A DNA stretch of 54,784 nt from NCBI GenBank assembly GCA_014654705.1, contig JACVZY010000111.1:1-54784 (forward strand). The letters are read 5' to 3'. The number at the start of each line of letters is the position of its first letter. Position 1 is the first letter of the stretch. Shown here piece by piece: positions 155 through 8,897 of this stretch. The stretch is from Ignavibacteria bacterium. Lineage in GTDB: Bacteria; Bacteroidota; Ignavibacteria; Kapaibacteriales; UBA4661. A model generated the notes under the pieces. It was not told where the DNA came from, did not search any database, and was given only the letters and a program-made list of their open reading frames with translations. The position numbers and the translations under genes were made by a program.

Positions 155-628
155 ATGAAACTTCACCGCAGCGCTACACTTGTGAGCATTTTGGGTACCG
201 CACTGATTCTCCTTTGGATTGGTATATTCAAATTTACTCCTACTGAGGCAAAAGCAATTCAGTCCCTCATTACTAATAGCCCACTTACATCGTGGATGAC
301 TCCCACGCTTGGCGTACAGGGTGCATCAAATCTCATTGGCGGCATTGAAATTCTTACCGCGCTACTGCTTATCTGCATTACCATCAGCACTCCCCTCTTC
401 CAACGTTTTGCATTTATCGGCGGGATACTTGGGACCGCAACATTTCTTTGCACCCTGAGCTTTCTAGCGACCACTCCGGGAGCATTTTCCGTTCATGATG
501 GTCTGCTGGTACCGGATGCATTTTTGTTGAAAGACCTTGTACTTTTGGGTGCGAGTATGTTATGCTCTGCTGAGGCGCTTGCAGCCTTGCGCATAGTCTC
601 TTCCAAAGAAAAAGCTGTTTCAAAATAG
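155..628 (+). CDS. DUF417 (YkgB/RclC-like) inner-membrane protein
   Basis: This 157-residue protein appears to have four hydrophobic segments, near residues 8-25, 58-82, 85-107 and 120-142, so it is very likely an integral inner-membrane protein. The IGIFKFTPTEA segment after the first helix and the later GGIEILTALLL segment are typical of the DUF417/YkgB family, which includes E. coli RclC of the reactive-chlorine response. The length matches that family. The start is the ATG at 155. A peroxiredoxin-like gene follows on the same strand 67 bp downstream, which fits a role in oxidative or electrophile stress, but that role is inferred from context. A DoxX-family assignment is a possible alternative because the two folds look alike. 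Confidence 0.75.
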   Translation: MKLHRSATLVSILGTALILLWIGIFKFTPTEAKAIQSLITNSPLTSWMTPTLGVQGASNLIGGIEILTALLLICITISTPLFQRFAFIGGILGTATFLCTLSFLATTPGAFSVHDGLLVPDAFLLKDLVLLGASMLCSAEALAALRIVSSKEKAVSK

Positions 629-1561: not shown

Positions 1562-1903
1562 ATGAATTTACCAGGCTTCGCCAAAGTGTATATGGCGCGT
1601 ATTTCGCCCCCATGTAGCGAAATAACACTTCTCGTATCAAAAGGGATGGACACGCGGTTAACCTTGAGGGAGCGTTTTAGGCTGCAATTCCATTTTATGA
1701 TCTGTTCGGGATGTAAACGATTTAACATACAGATTCAGTTGCTCCAAAAAATTATCCATCAATCGTTTGGCAGCACATCCGAAATAATCGGCAATTCCAC
1801 TGCCCCAACAGACGAATTGGCTAGTGCATTTCCGGAGGCAATGCCCAAAGAAGCACGTGTACGCATACAAACGGCGATTTCCACAGCGATTGGAGAGCAA
1901 TGA
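1562..1903 (+). CDS. Small ZAS/zf-HC2-type zinc-finger protein (anti-sigma-like)
   Basis: The product has 113 residues from the ATG at 1562, which has a purine-rich gagagga ribosome site 8-14 bases upstream; the frame could open earlier at 1478 without support. Near residues 18-55 there is a Cys followed by TLRERFRLQFHFMICSGC. The H-x3-C-x2-C arrangement with an upstream Cys is the zinc-associated anti-sigma (ZAS/zf-HC2) pattern, and TLRER...LHL-type sequence before it is common in small putative zinc-finger proteins that bind ECF sigma factors. No sigma-factor gene is adjacent. The gene overlaps the next one by 4 bases (ATGA), so the two are translationally coupled. Function is inferred from the motif only. 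Confidence 0.65.
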   Translation: MNLPGFAKVYMARISPPCSEITLLVSKGMDTRLTLRERFRLQFHFMICSGCKRFNIQIQLLQKIIHQSFGSTSEIIGNSTAPTDELASAFPEAMPKEARVRIQTAISTAIGEQ

Positions 1904-2883
1904 TAGCCCAGCCAATTCAGTCCATACTGCTCCGTGCGCTATCGGTACTCGTCTGCGCGACGATTACTTTTTCACAAGCACAATGCCACGATAGACCGAT
2001 AACCACAACACTGCTTGTGCTCAAGAATGGAACACGCATACTGTATGAAACCCCGCCCGACGAGCTTTCTCATCTGACGAATAGTTTTATTCAACAGTGG
2101 TTAGAACTCAATGTTTGCGCTATCGAAGCATACTACGGACGCTTCCCCCTCAAAGAGTTGACCCTAACGCTCAAAGCCGTCAGCAACAGCAGCGAAATAG
2201 GCTACGGGCAGGCAATGCCAGGTGAAATGCCGCGCTTAACGATTTACGTCGGAACAAAAACCCCGCCGGAAGGTTTTCGGTCTTCATGGGTAATGTGCCA
2301 CGAGATGACACATATCACATTCCCATCTCTAGACCGTGAGCATCGTTGGCTGGAAGAAGGCATTGCGACGTATGTTGAGCCTATTGCAAGAGCAATGACC
2401 GGAATTATTCCCGTCGAAAGTGTGTGGTTTGATTTGGTCAGTAAAACCCCGGAGGCTTTTGCCAATGCCGCTTCAGGTCTTGATGGAGTGCGCGATTTTC
2501 GGCGTGTGTATTGGGGTGGAGCGCTGTTTTGTCTAAGAGCAGATATTGAAATTCGCATCAAAACCGCAAACAAGCATAGTCTCCAAGAAGTGCTGCAAAT
2601 TATTATGAAACGTGAAGGCACAATGAACGAAGACAGGGATATTCTCACCGTCTTACGCACGGGCGATAAATATATTGGCGCATCAATTCTTGAAAAACTA
2701 TATCTTCAAATGGGCAAGACTGCTTACAAGCCCGATTTGGAAAAACTTTGGCTTGATTTGGGCATTGAGCGAACGGGTGGAACGGTGATATTTCACGATA
2801 AAGCACCGCTTGCAGCCATTCGTAAGAGCATCTGCTCTCGGTCGGCGGCATCATGCAATGATTTGTTTTTTCAGAAAAAGTAA
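1900..2883 (+). CDS. Exported gluzincin-like metallopeptidase
   Basis: A 327-residue protein starting with a hydrophobic segment (residues 8-25) that looks like a signal peptide ending near SQAQC. Residues 130-165 hold CHEMTHITF, an HExxH zinc motif, followed by WLEEGIATYVEP, in which the Glu of LEEGIATY is the likely third zinc ligand. This HExxH...E-G-x-A-x-Y pattern is that of gluzincin (clan MA(E)) peptidases. The rest of the protein is not recognised. It starts inside the stop codon of the zinc-finger gene (ATGA overlap), so the pair is co-translated. Substrate is unknown. A catalytically inactive relative cannot be excluded, although the key residues are present. Confidence 0.7.
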   Translation: MIAQPIQSILLRALSVLVCATITFSQAQCHDRPITTTLLVLKNGTRILYETPPDELSHLTNSFIQQWLELNVCAIEAYYGRFPLKELTLTLKAVSNSSEIGYGQAMPGEMPRLTIYVGTKTPPEGFRSSWVMCHEMTHITFPSLDREHRWLEEGIATYVEPIARAMTGIIPVESVWFDLVSKTPEAFANAASGLDGVRDFRRVYWGGALFCLRADIEIRIKTANKHSLQEVLQIIMKREGTMNEDRDILTVLRTGDKYIGASILEKLYLQMGKTAYKPDLEKLWLDLGIERTGGTVIFHDKAPLAAIRKSICSRSAASCNDLFFQKK

Positions 2884-2918
2884 ATGGCGTGAGCAGCTTT
2901 TCTGAAAATATTTTTTTT
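2868..2918 (+). terminator. AU-rich hairpin with T8 tract after the peptidase gene
   Basis: TTTTCAGAAAAAG at 2868-2880 pairs with CTTTTCTGAAAA at 2897-2908, and eight T residues follow at 2911-2918. The hairpin overlaps the peptidase stop codon. It is low in GC, so it is a plausible but not strong intrinsic terminator separating this gene from the RiPP operon. Confidence 0.45.
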
Positions 2919-3017
2919 GTAAGGTCGAGAATAAATCCCCGACTACTTAAAAAACGTACTAGAACAAAGTGGGCACTTCCCGCTTCATTTTTTTTTACAT
3001 ATTTATCAGGAGATTTT

Positions 3018-3266
3018 ATGAATCGCCAAGATTTTTCCAAGCTGATGGTCGGCGCTGCTGTTGCTGGCATGATTTCGGGTACTGCTCTTATGGCTCAGGA
3101 CAAACCTGCTGACAAACCTGCAGAAACCAAAAAAGCGAAGACCGAAAAAGCTACCAAAAAAGATAGCTGCAAAGGCAAAGACGGCTGCAAAGGCAAAGAC
3201 TCCAAAATGGAGAAGAAAAAAGATAGCTGCAAAGGCAAAGACGGTTGCAAAGGAAACGCAGCATAA
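3018..3266 (+). CDS. Bufferin/HvfA-like RiPP precursor peptide with Cys-Lys-Gly repeats
   Basis: This 82-residue peptide starts at ATG 3018 behind a clear AGGAGA ribosome site at 3008-3013, unusually strong for this window. The frame is open from 2889 but that start has no support. Residues 1-26 form a signal peptide (MVGAAVAGMISGTALMA, cleavage near AQ-DK), followed by a Lys/Pro/Ala-rich linker. The sequence KKDSCKGKDGCKG occurs twice, at residues 47-59 and 67-79, giving four cysteines (51, 57, 71, 77). An MNIO (DUF692) enzyme, a DUF2063 protein and a DoxX protein follow, the order seen in bufferin operons. There, Cys residues of exported precursors are modified by the MNIO enzyme to heterocycles that bind copper. 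Modification and metal binding are inferred. Confidence 0.85.
   Translation: MNRQDFSKLMVGAAVAGMISGTALMAQDKPADKPAETKKAKTEKATKKDSCKGKDGCKGKDSKMEKKKDSCKGKDGCKGNAA
3156..3254 (+). repeat. Duplicated core-peptide unit in the RiPP precursor
   Basis: Two 39-base units, 3156-3194 and 3216-3254, encode the same 13 residues (KKDSCKGKDGCKG) with almost identical codons; they differ at one visible synonymous position (ggc/ggt). A short KDSKMEK spacer separates them. This looks like a recent duplication that doubled the number of modifiable cysteines. Confidence 0.85.
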
Positions 3267-3430
3267 TTTTTTGTAGAAGCGAGCGGAGAACCGGGCAAAA
3301 GACACTCCAAATACCTTGAGGGGAAAAAGACCAAACTTTACGCATACTTAAAGTAACGTCAATTTGTCTGCGTTCTCCGTATCGCTATTTTTATCGCTTA
3401 CGCCATTTTTCACATTATTCGTTTTTTTCT

Positions 3431-4351
3431 ATGCTTCCGAATCGTTGGAATCTGCCAGATTTAGGCTTCGGTGTTGGATTGCGCTCAGTGCATTACGATT
3501 ACATCTTGGAAAATTTCCCGCCTGTGGATTGGTTTGAAGTAATCTCTGAAAACTACCTCTCACAAGGTGGTTACTCGTTTTACGCTCTGGAAAAAATTCG
3601 GGAACGCTACCCGATTGTTACACACGGCGTGTCGCTTTCGATTGGCAGCACTGACCCACTTAATTTTACCTATCTGGAACGCCTGAAGCGCCTTGCCGAC
3701 CTCATGGATACACCCTGGGTAAGCGACCACATCTGCTGGACTGGCGTGAACGGACGTAATACGCACGACCTCTTGCCCATTCTCTACACTGAAGAAACGC
3801 TGGGGCACATCGTAAAGCGGATTCGCACGATTCAAGACTTTTTGGGGCGACGTGTGGTCTTAGAAAATGTTTCGACGTATGTAGAATTTGCCGCCTCGAC
3901 GATGCCTGAGTGGGAGTTCATTGCTCGTATGGCTGAGGATGCTGATTGTGGCTTGCTTTTGGATGTGAACAATGTTTTTGTAAGTGCATTCAATCACAAC
4001 TTTGATGCAAAAGAATTTATTGACGCCATTCCCGCTGACCGAATTTGCCAATACCATCTCGCGGGGCATACCCACAAAGGTACACACATCATTGACACCC
4101 ACAGCGACCACGTAGTGGAGGGTGTTTGGGAACTGTATCGTTACGCCTATTCGCGTTCCGGCGGACGTGCTACGCTTCTCGAATGGGACGAAGACATTCC
4201 ATCATTTGAAGTTGTTCATGCAGAAGCACTCAAAGCACGTGCATACCGTGACAATGCTCATGCGGAAGGTGCGGGCAGCGGCTCTGCCATAGTGTCCACA
4301 CAAAAATCCGAACAACAGCTTCTTCACGCTTTTGCTAATGAATATGATTAA
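3431..4351 (+). CDS. MNIO-family (DUF692, BufB-like) RiPP-modifying enzyme
   Basis: The 306-residue protein covers the whole DUF692 TIM-barrel. Recognisable family segments are LGFGVGLRSVHYDYIL at the N-terminus, WFEVISENYL (residues 37-46), THGVSLSIGS, WVSDHICW, RRVVLENVSTYV, LLLDVNNVFVSA and CQYHLAGHTHKG, ending with LLEWDEDIP. These carry the His, Asp, Glu and Asn residues that bind the di- or tri-iron cluster in this family. MNIO enzymes oxidise Cys of ribosomal peptides to oxazolone/thioamide or thiooxazole groups. It lies 164 bp after the Cys-rich precursor and overlaps the DUF2063 gene, so precursor, enzyme and partner form one cassette. The enzyme class is clear; the exact product is not. 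Confidence 0.92.
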   Translation: MLPNRWNLPDLGFGVGLRSVHYDYILENFPPVDWFEVISENYLSQGGYSFYALEKIRERYPIVTHGVSLSIGSTDPLNFTYLERLKRLADLMDTPWVSDHICWTGVNGRNTHDLLPILYTEETLGHIVKRIRTIQDFLGRRVVLENVSTYVEFAASTMPEWEFIARMAEDADCGLLLDVNNVFVSAFNHNFDAKEFIDAIPADRICQYHLAGHTHKGTHIIDTHSDHVVEGVWELYRYAYSRSGGRATLLEWDEDIPSFEVVHAEALKARAYRDNAHAEGAGSGSAIVSTQKSEQQLLHAFANEYD

Positions 4352-5204
4352 CAAAGCGCATGAACCATTACCTTTAGCAGATTTTCAACGCTGGATGGTG
4401 TCGGTGGTAACACATTTTGGCACTGACGACCAAGCGTGGAACTCCGATGTTGCCACTGCCGAACTCAGCCATGATCGCGCCCTTCATAATGTTTTGCCCT
4501 CGAAAACGCTTACCGAATACGACCGCATTGGCATTTATCGTCGAATGTACTTTCTCCGTATGCGCGACTCACTTGCGGTAGATTTCCCATCGGTGCTGCA
4601 TTTGCTAGGGAAACCCCAATTTGAAGAGCTTACCGAGCAGTATTTCACAGCACATCCATCGAATTCCTACACCCTGAATGACACAGGGCTGAAATTTCCT
4701 AGCTTCGTGCGGTCAACGACTCTGCCCGATAAAGAATTTATAGCGCAGTTGGCGGAATTAGAACTTGCCATTAGTGCTGTCATGGAAGCTCCGGAAGTTC
4801 CACCAATCAGTGCCGTGGACATCGCTGGCATACCGCCCGATGCGTGGGATACTGCAATATTCACGGCGGTTGAGGCGTTCAGTTTACACGAATTTGCCTA
4901 CCCTGTCCACGATTATTTCTGCGCCGTTGAGGATAAGCATAATGAATTTCCGAACATACAACCGCACCCTAATTTCGTCTATATTCATCGCTCAAACTTC
5001 CACACGCAGCACTACGCCTTACGTGCAGAAGAGTATAGACTCCTCGAATTGCTCATCCAGGGTACAACGCTAGGCGAGGCGTTTGAAGCAGTACAGCAAG
5101 TTTTTACCAATAAACAAACTAATCTCGAGGAACTCCAAGCCCGCATCTCATCTCGCTTTCAGGAATGGATAATGAATGGTGTATTTGCTGCCATTCGTAC
5201 ATAA
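4338..5204 (+). CDS. DUF2063 (BufC/HvfC-like) partner of the MNIO enzyme
   Basis: The protein has 288 residues from ATG 4338; a TTG at 4332 and ATG at 4344 are also in frame. It overlaps the end of the MNIO gene by 14 bases. The N-terminal part (LADFQRWMVSVV ... YRRMYFLRMRDSLAVDFPSVLHLLG) is the DUF2063 domain, often misnamed a DNA-binding domain. In MNIO pathways it acts as a partner that recognises or delivers the precursor peptide. The C-terminal part (residues 150-288), with YIHRSNFHTQHYALRAEEYRLL, matches the second half of HvfC/BufC-type proteins. Length is normal. The gene order precursor-B-C-DoxX is the main support for the assignment. Confidence 0.85.
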   Translation: MNMINKAHEPLPLADFQRWMVSVVTHFGTDDQAWNSDVATAELSHDRALHNVLPSKTLTEYDRIGIYRRMYFLRMRDSLAVDFPSVLHLLGKPQFEELTEQYFTAHPSNSYTLNDTGLKFPSFVRSTTLPDKEFIAQLAELELAISAVMEAPEVPPISAVDIAGIPPDAWDTAIFTAVEAFSLHEFAYPVHDYFCAVEDKHNEFPNIQPHPNFVYIHRSNFHTQHYALRAEEYRLLELLIQGTTLGEAFEAVQQVFTNKQTNLEELQARISSRFQEWIMNGVFAAIRT

Positions 5205-5322
5205 ACACAAGCATCCCCCCAAACACTCGCCAATTCTCACGTTACCGAAAGCATCATGCTTTGGGCTGGAGCGGCATTACTATTTCGTACAATACTTTTT
5301 TCTATACTTTATTGAACATAAT

Positions 5323-5814
5323 ATGTTTACCTCCGCACTCTTTCGCACCGCACAGAACCTGTACTCACGGCTCGTCCATCTCCTGAATTTCGGGCAGGAT
5401 TTTTTGCTATTGGCTATGCGTCTCTACTGGGGCTGGCAGTTCTTCCAAACGGGTAAAGGAAAGCTCATGAATTTTGACCGCACGGTTGATTTTTTCACGA
5501 GTCTGAATATTCCTTTTCCTGCGTTCAATGTCACAATGGCGGGCACAACAGAATGTTTGGGCGGTTTACTGCTCCTTGTTGGCTTATTTTCTCGCGTTGT
5601 CAGCCTTCAACTTATTGTGGTATTGATGGTGGCTTATCTCACGGCTGACGCAGACACTGTGAAAAATATTCTTGAAAAGCCCGATGATTTCACCGCAGCA
5701 ACGCCATTTCTCTTTTTGCTGGCAACTCTTACGGTCGCTTTTTTTGGTGCGGGAAAATGGTCTTTGGATGAGTTTCTACGGCGTTTTATTGCAAAGAAGC
5801 AGTCTTCATACTGA
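5323..5814 (+). CDS. DoxX-family inner-membrane protein (BufD-like)
   Basis: From ATG 5323 the product is 163 residues; the frame is open upstream to 5176, but that stretch is not hydrophobic in the family pattern. Four membrane segments are visible. The LLLAMRLYWGWQFFQTGKGKL motif and the GTTECLGGLLLLVGLFSRVV segment are characteristic of DoxX. DoxX proteins commonly close bufferin-type operons, where they are thought to help in the redox or membrane side of metal handling. The gene lies 118 bp after DUF2063 on the same strand. Family is confident; function is inferred from the operon. Confidence 0.85.
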   Translation: MFTSALFRTAQNLYSRLVHLLNFGQDFLLLAMRLYWGWQFFQTGKGKLMNFDRTVDFFTSLNIPFPAFNVTMAGTTECLGGLLLLVGLFSRVVSLQLIVVLMVAYLTADADTVKNILEKPDDFTAATPFLFLLATLTVAFFGAGKWSLDEFLRRFIAKKQSSY

Positions 5815-6284
5815 ACCAATCAGCACTAAAGTTGTAGAAGTTTGAAGAGGATGGAGAGTCTTGTTTTGTGGTTATTCGAGAATAATTGGAGCGTGAATTC
5901 AAGTTACAAGTTCGGTATGACTTTTTGTTGCTGCTTTTCAAGACAAGGTTACCGTTTACAGAACACATTCGGCACAAGAGTTTTAGCGAAATTCCTACCG
6001 CAAATTTTATCCACCGTGATATTTCGCGTTTGTACCGTAAGTTCAATGTGTGAAATATATAAATCTTTCCTAAAATTGTGTAAGACTTTCCAACTCAAAA
6101 AAACTTAAAATTGTGGCGTATGCTGGGCGTATCGTTATTTTTTGGTGATACTAAGGGTAAAAACGAGAAGACTCTTGATAAAATGCCCGTGAAATCTTGT
6201 GTTACCTCACCGATACGTTGTTTCAAACCTAACATTTGAATTCACAACATACGATTTTTTCTATCCACAATTACTGGAGTTTTT
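5815..6284. other. Intergenic gap without a supported gene
   Basis: The 470 bases between the DoxX gene and the outer-membrane protein gene are AT-rich. Open frames here (up to 88 codons) have unstructured composition, no ribosome site and no recognisable motif. No strong hairpin or repeat was found. The 3' part probably holds the promoter of the downstream gene. Confidence 0.6.
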
Positions 6285-7361: not shown

Positions 7362-8108
7362 ATGAAACAACAAACCAAAATCAATATTGTCGAGAAACAT
7401 CCGCTTGCAGTGCGTTGGTTTCATTGGATAAATTTCCCTGTTCTGCTAGTAATGATTTGGAGCGGGCTACTCATCTACTGGGCAAATGATATTTATGAAA
7501 TCAAGATTGGCTCCACAACGCTCATAAAATTCTTTCCAAAGCAGTTCTATGATGCGCTAAATCTACGCGCTCGGCTGGCGGACGGTATGGCATACCATTT
7601 CACGTTTGCCTGGTTTTTCGCCATCAATGGTCTGCTCTACGTTTTGTATTTGGTTGTGTCAGGCGAGTGGTGTTTCATAGCACCCGATAAATCTTCATTA
7701 GGCGAGGCGTGGAAAGTTTTGCTGAACGACCTTTTCATCAAGAAATATACGCATGAAAAAGTAAAATTTAATGGCGCACAGCGTATCGCCTATACAAGCG
7801 TCATCATCATGGGCTTTGGATCATTGCTGACGGGGCTGGCTATCTACAAGCCCATACAACTTTCATGGCTGGCTTACGCACTTGGCGGATACGAAATTGC
7901 ACGTATTGAACATTTTTGTCTCACCCTTGGCTTTTGTGTGTTTTTTCTTGTTCATTTGCTCCAAGTCATTCGTGCGGGTTGGAATAATTTTCGTGCAATG
8001 GTCTCTGGCTTTGAGTTGGAAGAAGTTGCCGATAATCCCCCGGATGCAAGTGAAGACTTGACTTCCACTGTCAATGATACTACTCCCATACACCCAACTA
8101 CTTTGTAA
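7362..8108 (+). CDS. Di-heme cytochrome b membrane subunit for the Mo-oxidoreductase
   Basis: The 248-residue protein (ATG 7362; 7296 also in frame) has four or five membrane helices. Histidines lie where b-type hemes are held in the bacterial cytochrome b561/thiosulfate-reductase group: HPLAVRWFHW near the N-terminus, MAYHFTFAWFF in the second helix, and HFCLTLGFCVFFLVHLLQV in the last. The LNDLFIKKYTHEKVKFNGAQRIAYTSVI segment is typical of this cytochrome group. The next gene, 18 bp downstream, encodes an exported molybdopterin oxidoreductase. The two probably form a membrane-anchored reductase or dehydrogenase exchanging electrons with the quinone pool, analogous to MsrPQ but with a different cytochrome type. 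Confidence 0.82.
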   Translation: MKQQTKINIVEKHPLAVRWFHWINFPVLLVMIWSGLLIYWANDIYEIKIGSTTLIKFFPKQFYDALNLRARLADGMAYHFTFAWFFAINGLLYVLYLVVSGEWCFIAPDKSSLGEAWKVLLNDLFIKKYTHEKVKFNGAQRIAYTSVIIMGFGSLLTGLAIYKPIQLSWLAYALGGYEIARIEHFCLTLGFCVFFLVHLLQVIRAGWNNFRAMVSGFELEEVADNPPDASEDLTSTVNDTTPIHPTTL

Positions 8109-8126
8109 TTTATTATTGTCAAATGT

Positions 8127-8897
8127 ATGTCAACGCCTATAAAACCTTCATCTACGCTCACTCTTGAACAAAAAAAAAACATCACGCGGCGCAATTTCCT
8201 AAGTTTTGCAACGCTTGGTTTTGGTGCCTTGAGTGGCATATTAGGATGGAATTGGGTTCGCAAACAACCTGAAGTGGATGGAACTGTCGCGCCGCTTCGT
8301 TCTATGCTCGAAACAAACGGCTTTCTGAATGAAACCGTACTTTATAGCAATGCCCACTTAGCGCCGGAATACCCACGTTCGGCGGCGGCGGTAGAACCAC
8401 GTACAAATGGCGACGTTGGGCTTGACGAAGACATTGACGCAAGGGATTGGAAACTAACAATTGTTGATACAAAAATTGGCAAGCCACTTGAGTTAGTGCT
8501 CGCAGACATTATGGCGTTACCCAAAACAGAAATTGTTTTCGACTTCAAATGCGTGGAAGGATGGAACGAAATCCAACATTGGGGCGGTGTGCGGCTTAGC
8601 GATGTATTTCGCAACTATGCTCTACCCACTGATTTTCGGTATGTGGGAATGTCAACCCCAGACAAGGCATATTATGTAGGTTTAGACATGGCAAGCGCTC
8701 TTCATCCGCAAACACTGCTGGCGTTTGAGTCCAACGGGCAGGATATTTCGTTTGAACAAGGCTATCCGCTTCGTTTGATTATACCGGTGAAGTATGGCAT
8801 CAAAAATATCAAACGTATTGGCACTATTATCCTGACAAATGAGCGCCCTCCGGATTACTGGGCAGAACAAGGGTACGATTATCATGCCGGGTTGTAA
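8127..8897 (+). CDS. Tat-exported molybdopterin-dependent oxidoreductase (sulfite oxidase/MsrP-like)
   Basis: The 256-residue protein has a twin-arginine signal, TRRNFLSFATLGFG (Arg 21-22), so it should be exported folded with its cofactor. Residues 105-250 match the oxidoreductase molybdopterin-binding domain of the sulfite oxidase superfamily. FDFKCVEGWNEIQHWGGVRL holds the Cys (residue 142) expected to bind molybdenum, and SFEQGYPLRLIIPVKYGIKNIKRIGTIIL is the conserved C-terminal part, ending in YWAEQGYDYHAGL. There is no dimerisation domain, as in YedY/MsrP-type enzymes. Partnered with the preceding cytochrome b. Substrate is unknown; methionine sulfoxide repair or sulfur-compound oxidation are possibilities. 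Confidence 0.88.
   Translation: MSTPIKPSSTLTLEQKKNITRRNFLSFATLGFGALSGILGWNWVRKQPEVDGTVAPLRSMLETNGFLNETVLYSNAHLAPEYPRSAAAVEPRTNGDVGLDEDIDARDWKLTIVDTKIGKPLELVLADIMALPKTEIVFDFKCVEGWNEIQHWGGVRLSDVFRNYALPTDFRYVGMSTPDKAYYVGLDMASALHPQTLLAFESNGQDISFEQGYPLRLIIPVKYGIKNIKRIGTIILTNERPPDYWAEQGYDYHAGL

Follow-up and report, generated by a model that had tools for sequence, protein, structure and literature searches.

A four-cysteine operon of probable bufferin-2-like type in an Ignavibacteria genome

Which kind of modified peptide is made by an operon in which a small cysteine-rich precursor gene precedes an MNIO gene? This question is raised by a locus at 3018-5814 of the DNA analyzed here (the window), which comprises positions 1-54,784 of the forward strand of contig JACVZY010000111.1 (C111), from the start of that contig, in the assembly GCA_014654705.1 of an Ignavibacteria bacterium (5,724,991 bases in 118 contigs). 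A first-pass annotation had described a bufferin-like operon for a ribosomally synthesized and post-translationally modified peptide (RiPP), with MNIO, DUF2063 and DoxX genes, and had placed it nearer to the HvfA kind. The first part agrees with our data, the second does not. By analogy with studied relatives, the operon probably encodes a captophorin of the Cys-Lys type (bufferin-2-like), that is, an exported, copper-binding thiooxazole peptide.

Precursor, operon and distribution

The operon consists of the following features.

3018-3266, forward strand: precursor (bufA-like), 82 residues, from ATG at 3018 to the stop at 3266, with leader MNRQDFSKLMVGAAVAGMISGTALMAQ and a four-Cys core
3156-3194, forward strand: core copy 1, KKDSCKGKDGCKG
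3216-3254, forward strand: core copy 2, KKDSCKGKDGCKG, 37 of 39 nucleotides identical to copy 1
3431-4351, forward strand: MNIO maturase (bufB-like), 306 residues (PF05114, E 1e-107; NF050167 358.7, cut-off 310)
4338-5204, forward strand: DUF2063 partner (bufC-like, PME type 1), 288 residues, overlapping the MNIO gene (PF09836, E 8e-17)
5323-5814, forward strand: DoxX-family membrane protein (HvfX-like; PF07681, E 3e-19; NF050144 79.5 bits, just missing the cut-off of 80)

The three Pfam matches confirm the annotated genes behind the precursor on the same strand. For comparison, a related set of 61 genomes was searched (precursor match at E up to 0.01, MNIO at E up to 1e-20), and MNIO was also surveyed in 395 genomes drawn from the phylum. 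L numbers denote loci and G numbers genomes (G032 is the genome of L031).

The precursor starts with MNRQDFSKLMVGAAVAGMISGTALMAQ, which by eye is plausibly a signal peptide, followed by a Lys-rich linker and then by KKDSCKGKDGCKGKDSKMEKKKDSCKGKDGCKGNAA. The 13-residue repeat KKDSCKGKDGCKG occurs twice, with the copies 20 codons apart. The annotated exact 39-base duplication is exact in protein but not in DNA, where the copies mismatch at two synonymous third positions. Still, the repeat greatly exceeds chance: its best 39-nucleotide self-match is 37, and none of 1000 codon shuffles went above 28. Recent duplication is not favored as the origin of the repeat, because six-Cys precursors of the Buf2 type are already two-halved and because the window and three close relatives (L003, L004, L028) all have the two copies. 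The 39-base copies show 2 to 5 differences within a gene and 1 to 6 between species. The precursor had also been set apart as short in comparison with large bufferins; it is not small beside bufferins, as the BufA2 model has 79 positions.

In the window precursor, all four Cys are followed by Lys, with CX5C spacing and not in a Lys-Cys-Gly context. Taking the four four-Cys precursors together, all 16 Cys are followed by Lys and then by Gly or Ser. Selection on the core is purifying (pN 0.07-0.10 and pS 0.33-0.58 for the window versus L003, L004 and L028, based on few sites), and the linker is looser (pN 0.24-0.36 in the same three comparisons).

Precursor matches were found in 6 of the 61 related genomes, all six of which also have an MNIO match, so that the precursor is conserved next to the MNIO gene, as the annotation implied, except that in L004 another gene intervenes. 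MNIO matches were present in 9 of the 61 related genomes and in 19 of the 395 genomes from the phylum. The genome of the window has a single MNIO match and a single DUF2063 protein above cut-off. Among the eight genomes of the genus, four have both precursor and MNIO and four have neither; the absence in G002 may be a gap, since its contig breaks off just past the anti-sigma gene, at the expected place of the cluster. A Cys-rich precursor gene with a signal (judged by eye) lies directly before the MNIO gene in the window, L003, L028, L031 and L032. In L004, an AhpC/TSA-type (peroxiredoxin-like) gene (4341-4949) is inserted between the two.

The first-pass annotation had suggested a search for varying repeat number. 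The number of Cys does differ between genera, but it is constant among the four members of this genus (window, L003, L004, L028), which all have four Cys in steps of 6, 14 and 6. L032, from a sister genus, has three (steps 6, 6), and L031, from another family of the same order, has six (steps 6, 6, 7, 6, 6). The L031 leader, MNGKDFGKLMIGAAVAGLISGGAAFA, matches the window leader at 18 of 26 residues (our count), and its halves, CKGMNECKGKGGC and CKGKNACKGKGGC, carry three Cys each. The window has two Cys per half; the place of the third is taken by Lys in the first half, and in the second it would lie past the C-terminus. A small part of the Buf2 core may thus suffice, with two CX5C pairs in a Kapaibacteriales genus, three Cys in one run in a sister genus and a persisting six-Cys form in the same order. 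Such a natural series could be used to test how many thiooxazoles copper binding requires.

Assignment to the Cys-Lys type

The MNIO protein passes the BufB model and fails the NCBIfam HvfB model (258.1, cut-off 360). Its residues N180, N181, D222 and H224 are near-invariant in 43 aligned rows. According to an alignment with 3BWW, N180 or N181, D222 and H224 are the counterparts of HvfB N175, D242 and H244, changes of which abolished activity (PMC13419390; this and the other papers are cited from excerpts of their text).

For the MNIO tree, 44 rows were labelled by eye from the upstream precursor (27 Cys-Lys, 7 Buf1, 6 Lys-Cys, 4 with none identified), omitting the partial MNIO of L028, L034 and L035 and duplicates from contigs already represented (L001, L002, L029, L030). 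The six Lys-Cys rows, together with L036 (no precursor identified), separate at 100/100 support. The window enzyme is grouped first with L003 and L004 (100/99) and next with L031 and L032 (96/89). The remaining groups branch in a largely unresolved order, and a single Buf1 row, L020, is fragmentary. Directly behind the catalytic-base Asp, all six Lys-Cys rows and L036 carry Phe and the window carries Glu (E254); none of the 27 Cys-Lys rows has Phe there (9 A, 6 E, 6 D, 3 G, 2 S, 1 N). Phe in Lys-Cys enzymes and Asp in Cys-Lys enzymes have been described for this position (PMC13097082). As D, E, A, S, N and G all occur among Cys-Lys rows, the residue excludes an HvfB-type enzyme and does not prove the Cys-Lys type.

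The precursors point in the same direction. A profile of the four four-Cys precursors and L032 aligned with six Buf2-type precursors at 97% probability and with four HvfA-type precursors at 3% (hhalign), where the contrast and not the E-values should be read because the sequences are of low complexity. The HvfA precursor models NF050137 and NF050188 gave no match to the window precursor up to E 1, and the control EGKCG precursor L046 matched NF050137 at 57.1 (cut-off 19.5). Pfam DUF2282 was not matched by the precursor up to E 0.1.

The DUF2063 protein gave no match up to E 1 in a sequence search of the PDB. Its predicted model, from 12 aligned sequences (pLDDT 88.7, pTM 0.81), found gonococcal PME1 (3DEE) first in Foldseek (E 9.9e-07, TMt 0.68) and the TglHI complex next. 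These matches of a predicted fold fit the RRE-bearing partner described in PMC13097082. With the Pfam matches, the BufB model and the MNIO tree, the PME1-like partner fold supports the annotation as a bufferin-like RiPP operon.

The window shares with Buf2 systems the gene order precursor-MNIO-DUF2063-DoxX, a signal-like leader, CKG motifs with CX5C spacing and an MNIO above the BufB cut-off, and L031 forms a bridge within the order, with its similar leader and six-Cys core. It differs in having four Cys, the third of each half being gone, and in the anti-sigma gene and ECF-type (extracytoplasmic function) promoter-like site at the locus. Several observations weigh against the assignment. The precursor scores far under the BufA2 cut-off (NF050166: 16.9 bits, E 0.0054, cut-off 60), as does, less markedly, L031 (42.9), versus 100.9 for the control L023. 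Buf2 precursors have 6 or 12 Cys (PMC12452194), the window 4. Its enzyme has Glu where the published Cys-Lys enzymes have Asp (logo in PMC13097082), and no copper gene was found among the scanned neighbors. Because the precursor remains under the cut-off, we regard the operon as a four-Cys variant of the Buf2-type system, an ordinary kind in unusual form, and not as a formal BufA2 member.

Other relatives are more distant. Buf1 (DUF2282) bufferins, as in Caulobacter under sigma-F/NrsF control, have the same enzyme set and a similar logic of ECF control, but the window lacks a DUF2282 precursor and its anti-sigma is of the zinc-finger type, not NrsF. The CxxxxC precursor family (PMC12452194) likewise combines a signal peptide with paired Cys beside MNIO, but with CX4C instead of CX5C spacing, and no Lactamase_B_2 match was found among the scanned neighbors of the window.

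A Cys-Lys group with 5-thiooxazoles in related products has been described (PMC13097082), and copper is the metal in studied relatives (PMC12452194, PMC13097082). On this basis, the DUF2063 protein would hold the precursor, and the diiron MNIO would oxidize up to four Cys, each within D[SG]CK[GS], to 5-thiooxazoles in the cytoplasm. The signal peptide would then export the modified peptide to the periplasm, where the modified core would bind and buffer Cu(I), with some membrane role for DoxX. The product is thus most likely a periplasmic, copper-binding peptide with up to four 5-thiooxazoles, which would leave the picture of what bufferin-type peptides do unchanged.

A role of the peptide with another metal, or with an oxidant such as hypochlorite, instead of copper is unlikely. 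This would suit a neighboring DUF417 gene (a weak RclC match of 52.8, cut-off 275), AhpC/TSA-type genes in the window and L004, and a gene that is probably of the AraC type; however, the latter matches RclR only at E 0.07, and the studied relatives use copper.

We also consider it quite improbable that the MNIO makes a modification other than 5-thiooxazole, or modifies only one Cys per pair. The core is unlike described substrates in having four Cys and in missing the third Cys of both Buf2 halves, and the enzyme has Glu for Asp. Moreover, FonBC left substrates with a charged residue after Cys, such as NACKG, unprocessed (PMC13097082), so that specificity depends on the enzyme and a CKG core needs its own. 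Against this, the window enzyme lies above the BufB cut-off, and the CX5C Cys-Lys spacing is the same as in Buf2.

An HvfA/oxazolin-type (Lys-Cys, EGKCG) peptide, towards which the first-pass annotation had leaned, is very improbable: the short Lys-rich precursor with tandem Cys motifs, the MNIO, DUF2063 and DoxX genes with their HvfC and HvfX scores (64.6 bits, cut-off 142, and 79.5, cut-off 80) and the sigma and anti-sigma-like genes just upstream of Lys-Cys clusters in related genomes recall that type, but the motif is CKG and not KCG, the spacing CX5C and not CX4C, the HvfB and HvfA models are missed, the profile favors Buf2, and the MNIO lies outside the Lys-Cys clade and lacks its Phe.

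Among the matches listed for one literature search (20 of 21), none joined "MNIO" with a Kapabacteria or Ignavibacteria term, and among those listed for another (20 of 43), none was a bufferin paper ("bufferin" also retrieves "buffering"); neither "MNIO" nor "bufferin" occurred among the matches listed for a further search (10 of 202).

Promoter, sigma factor and RNA elements

Upstream of the precursor gene and in the spacer behind it, the following features were located.

1562-1903, forward strand: zinc-finger (zf-HC2-type) anti-sigma factor (NF052368 56.5 bits, cut-off 50), start codon chosen by us
1900-2883, forward strand: HExxH-type peptidase-like protein (HEMTH) with a signal-like start, overlapping the anti-sigma gene
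2918-2945, forward strand: ECF-type promoter-like site, TGTAAGGT-N14-CGWCTA, the only site of a slightly relaxed pattern in this genome
2967-2995, forward strand: small terminator-like hairpin with T-run in the precursor mRNA leader, conserved in the window, L003, L004 and L028
3284-3379, forward strand: conserved structured spacer element with a long closing stem and, in its interior, CTT..GGGG and TTTACGCATA

The anti-sigma protein is under the cut-off of Pfam zf-HC2 (20.2, cut-off 22.2). The protein encoded at 1900-2883, which we take to be peptidase-like, has no Pfam or NCBIfam match; homologs stand before the precursor in L003, L004 and L028.

The motif TGTAAGGT-N14-CGWCTA is found upstream of the precursor in the window, L003, L004, L028 and L032, and much resembles the Caulobacter sigma-F site GTAACC-N16-CGAA (PMC3511200). 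With one base relaxed, it occurs once each in 7 of 10 genomes, versus 2 sites in 2 of 10 for the backward control. Beyond the five precursor sites, it lies before an anti-sigma homolog in G002 and before a lipoprotein-like gene in G009. A sigma-70 promoter scan gave 4 sites, with 4.6 expected.

A candidate sigma factor is indicated by L028, where groEL (by eye), ECF sigma, anti-sigma, peptidase-like gene and precursor follow each other in one row (sigma: TIGR02943 190.1, cut-off 162.2; anti-sigma: 60.2, cut-off 50). The genome of the window encodes its sigma ortholog (77-78% identical) on another contig, C30, between groEL and an AraC-type gene, behind which the contig ends. As sigma, DUF417, kinase and anti-sigma genes form a single row in the L003 genome and in G002, we take C30 and C111 to be adjacent. 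G008 has its sigma and precursor genes on separate contigs.

Seven of the 10 genomes gave sigma matches of at least 38% identity, and precisely these seven have the motif; G004 and G006 have only 26% identical sigmas, and no match was found in G003. Motif and sigma agree in all 10 genomes (chance probability 1 in 120), five of which had defined the motif; in the remaining five, agreement is 5 of 5, with a chance of 1 in 10 (our arithmetic). The TIGR02943-family sigma may read TGTAAGGT-N14-CGWCTA. Envelope or metal stress would then cause the anti-sigma to release this sigma, which would transcribe the precursor from the site. Background comes from work on a sigma factor that responds to copper and on an MNIO operon induced by gold and copper (PMC12153292, PMC5413113).

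Other observations are less favorable to such control. L031 has no promoter motif, though G032 (outside the 10-genome search) has a 35% identical sigma with a stop inside. No TIGR02943-family sigma is encoded on the contig of the window, and in G007 sigma and anti-sigma genes are approximately 16 kb apart. In the excerpted text of the survey PMC12452194 (2025), sigma genes accompany Buf1 and not Buf2; a Cys-Lys cluster beside a module of ECF sigma and zinc-finger anti-sigma, as here, was not found with Buf2 there.

Lys-Cys (EGKCG-type) clusters of the same class, L045-L048, have an ECF sigma and an anti-sigma-like gene directly upstream. Only L048 was tested for family membership (TIGR02943 163.1, cut-off 162.2; anti-sigma 44.9, cut-off 50).

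For the leader hairpin, the case rests on conservation, as a terminator scan gave 6 sites in 2800-5900, with 3.4 (standard deviation 2.1) expected by chance. The spacer element has counterparts in L003 (4847-4950), L004 (4214-4325) and L028 (4832-4931). It lies between precursor and MNIO, or, in L004, between precursor and the inserted AhpC/TSA-type gene, and all four enclose CTT..GGGG and YTTACGCATA in a long closing stem. Fold z-scores are -4.99, -3.27, -4.59 and -2.71, and the reverse strand of the window gives -2.00. Of the 24 cells of the inner stem, 23 are paired, and double changes, all owing to L003, affect three of its six pairs; 5 of 500 shuffles did equally well. The outer pairs AGCGA/TCGCT, TACAA/TTGTA and AACAA/TTGTT, placed by hand, hold in three of four. 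A T-run after the closing stem is present in the window and L003 only.

A model of the element found one strong copy in each of the four training genomes (67-83 bits). Matches at E up to 1 occurred in 23 of the 61 genomes, and stricter filters were used. The match in G002 (28.3 bits), inside a long ATPase-like open reading frame, is attributed to chance; others scored at most 24.2. Three exact-pattern matches, in G036, G042 and G047, were at the level of the backward control (7 in 6 of 61 genomes) and were discarded. No other believable copy was detected in the 61 genomes or in a set of 38 sources that included L031 and L032. Rfam gave nothing near the gathering score in window positions 2800-3500 or in L003, L004 and L028, and no tRNA or tmRNA was found in the window.

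With low confidence, the spacer element may be a structured RNA that tunes precursor versus enzyme; the plain alternative is an mRNA-stabilizing stem. The more specific idea of a regulatory RNA, for example an attenuator that responds to metal or redox state and adjusts the precursor:maturase ratio within a sigma-controlled operon, is improbable. The conserved element is nevertheless a candidate for RNA control, which, to our knowledge, is not known from MNIO RiPPs.

Export and additional observations

In Buf2-like precursors of Planctomycetaceae and Verrucomicrobia, leaders read by eye contain the RRxF motif of twin-arginine (Tat) signals (L005 4346-4906, L006 4492-4926, L007 1045-1476, L008 4362-4871), and L005 also has a lipobox-like LAGC. 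These precursors are possibly exported by Tat, one perhaps as a lipoprotein. RR is absent from L011, L014, L022 and L023. Tat export of the window precursor is unsupported, as NRQDF stands at the RRxF place, with RQ where RR is expected; the genome does encode TatC. From this comparison, a Tat signal may be the ancestor of the Kapaibacterium leader, which most likely now works by Sec.

Some Cys-Lys cores end long proteins or are encoded after separate ones (L012 3106-4980, L033 2-1480, L042, L043, L016, L017, and the upstream genes of L037 and L044). In a Pfam scan of L012, L033, L043 and the separately encoded upstream proteins of L037 and L044, all but L033 and L043 matched Ferritin-like PF12902; these two matched no family. 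MNIO-modified ferritin-like proteins are therefore possible. The excerpted text of PMC12452194 contains none of the words "ferritin", "Tat" and "twin-arginine".

The DUF417 and AhpC/TSA genes before the cluster (window 155-628, 702-1451), with the AraC-type gene beside the sigma gene (L113 200-1099), are reminiscent of the reactive-chlorine rcl set, with weak model matches. Downstream of the cluster, the window encodes cytochrome b561 and a molybdopterin oxidoreductase (7365-8897); oxidored_molybd genes have been reported in a small number of EGKCG clusters (PMC12452194).

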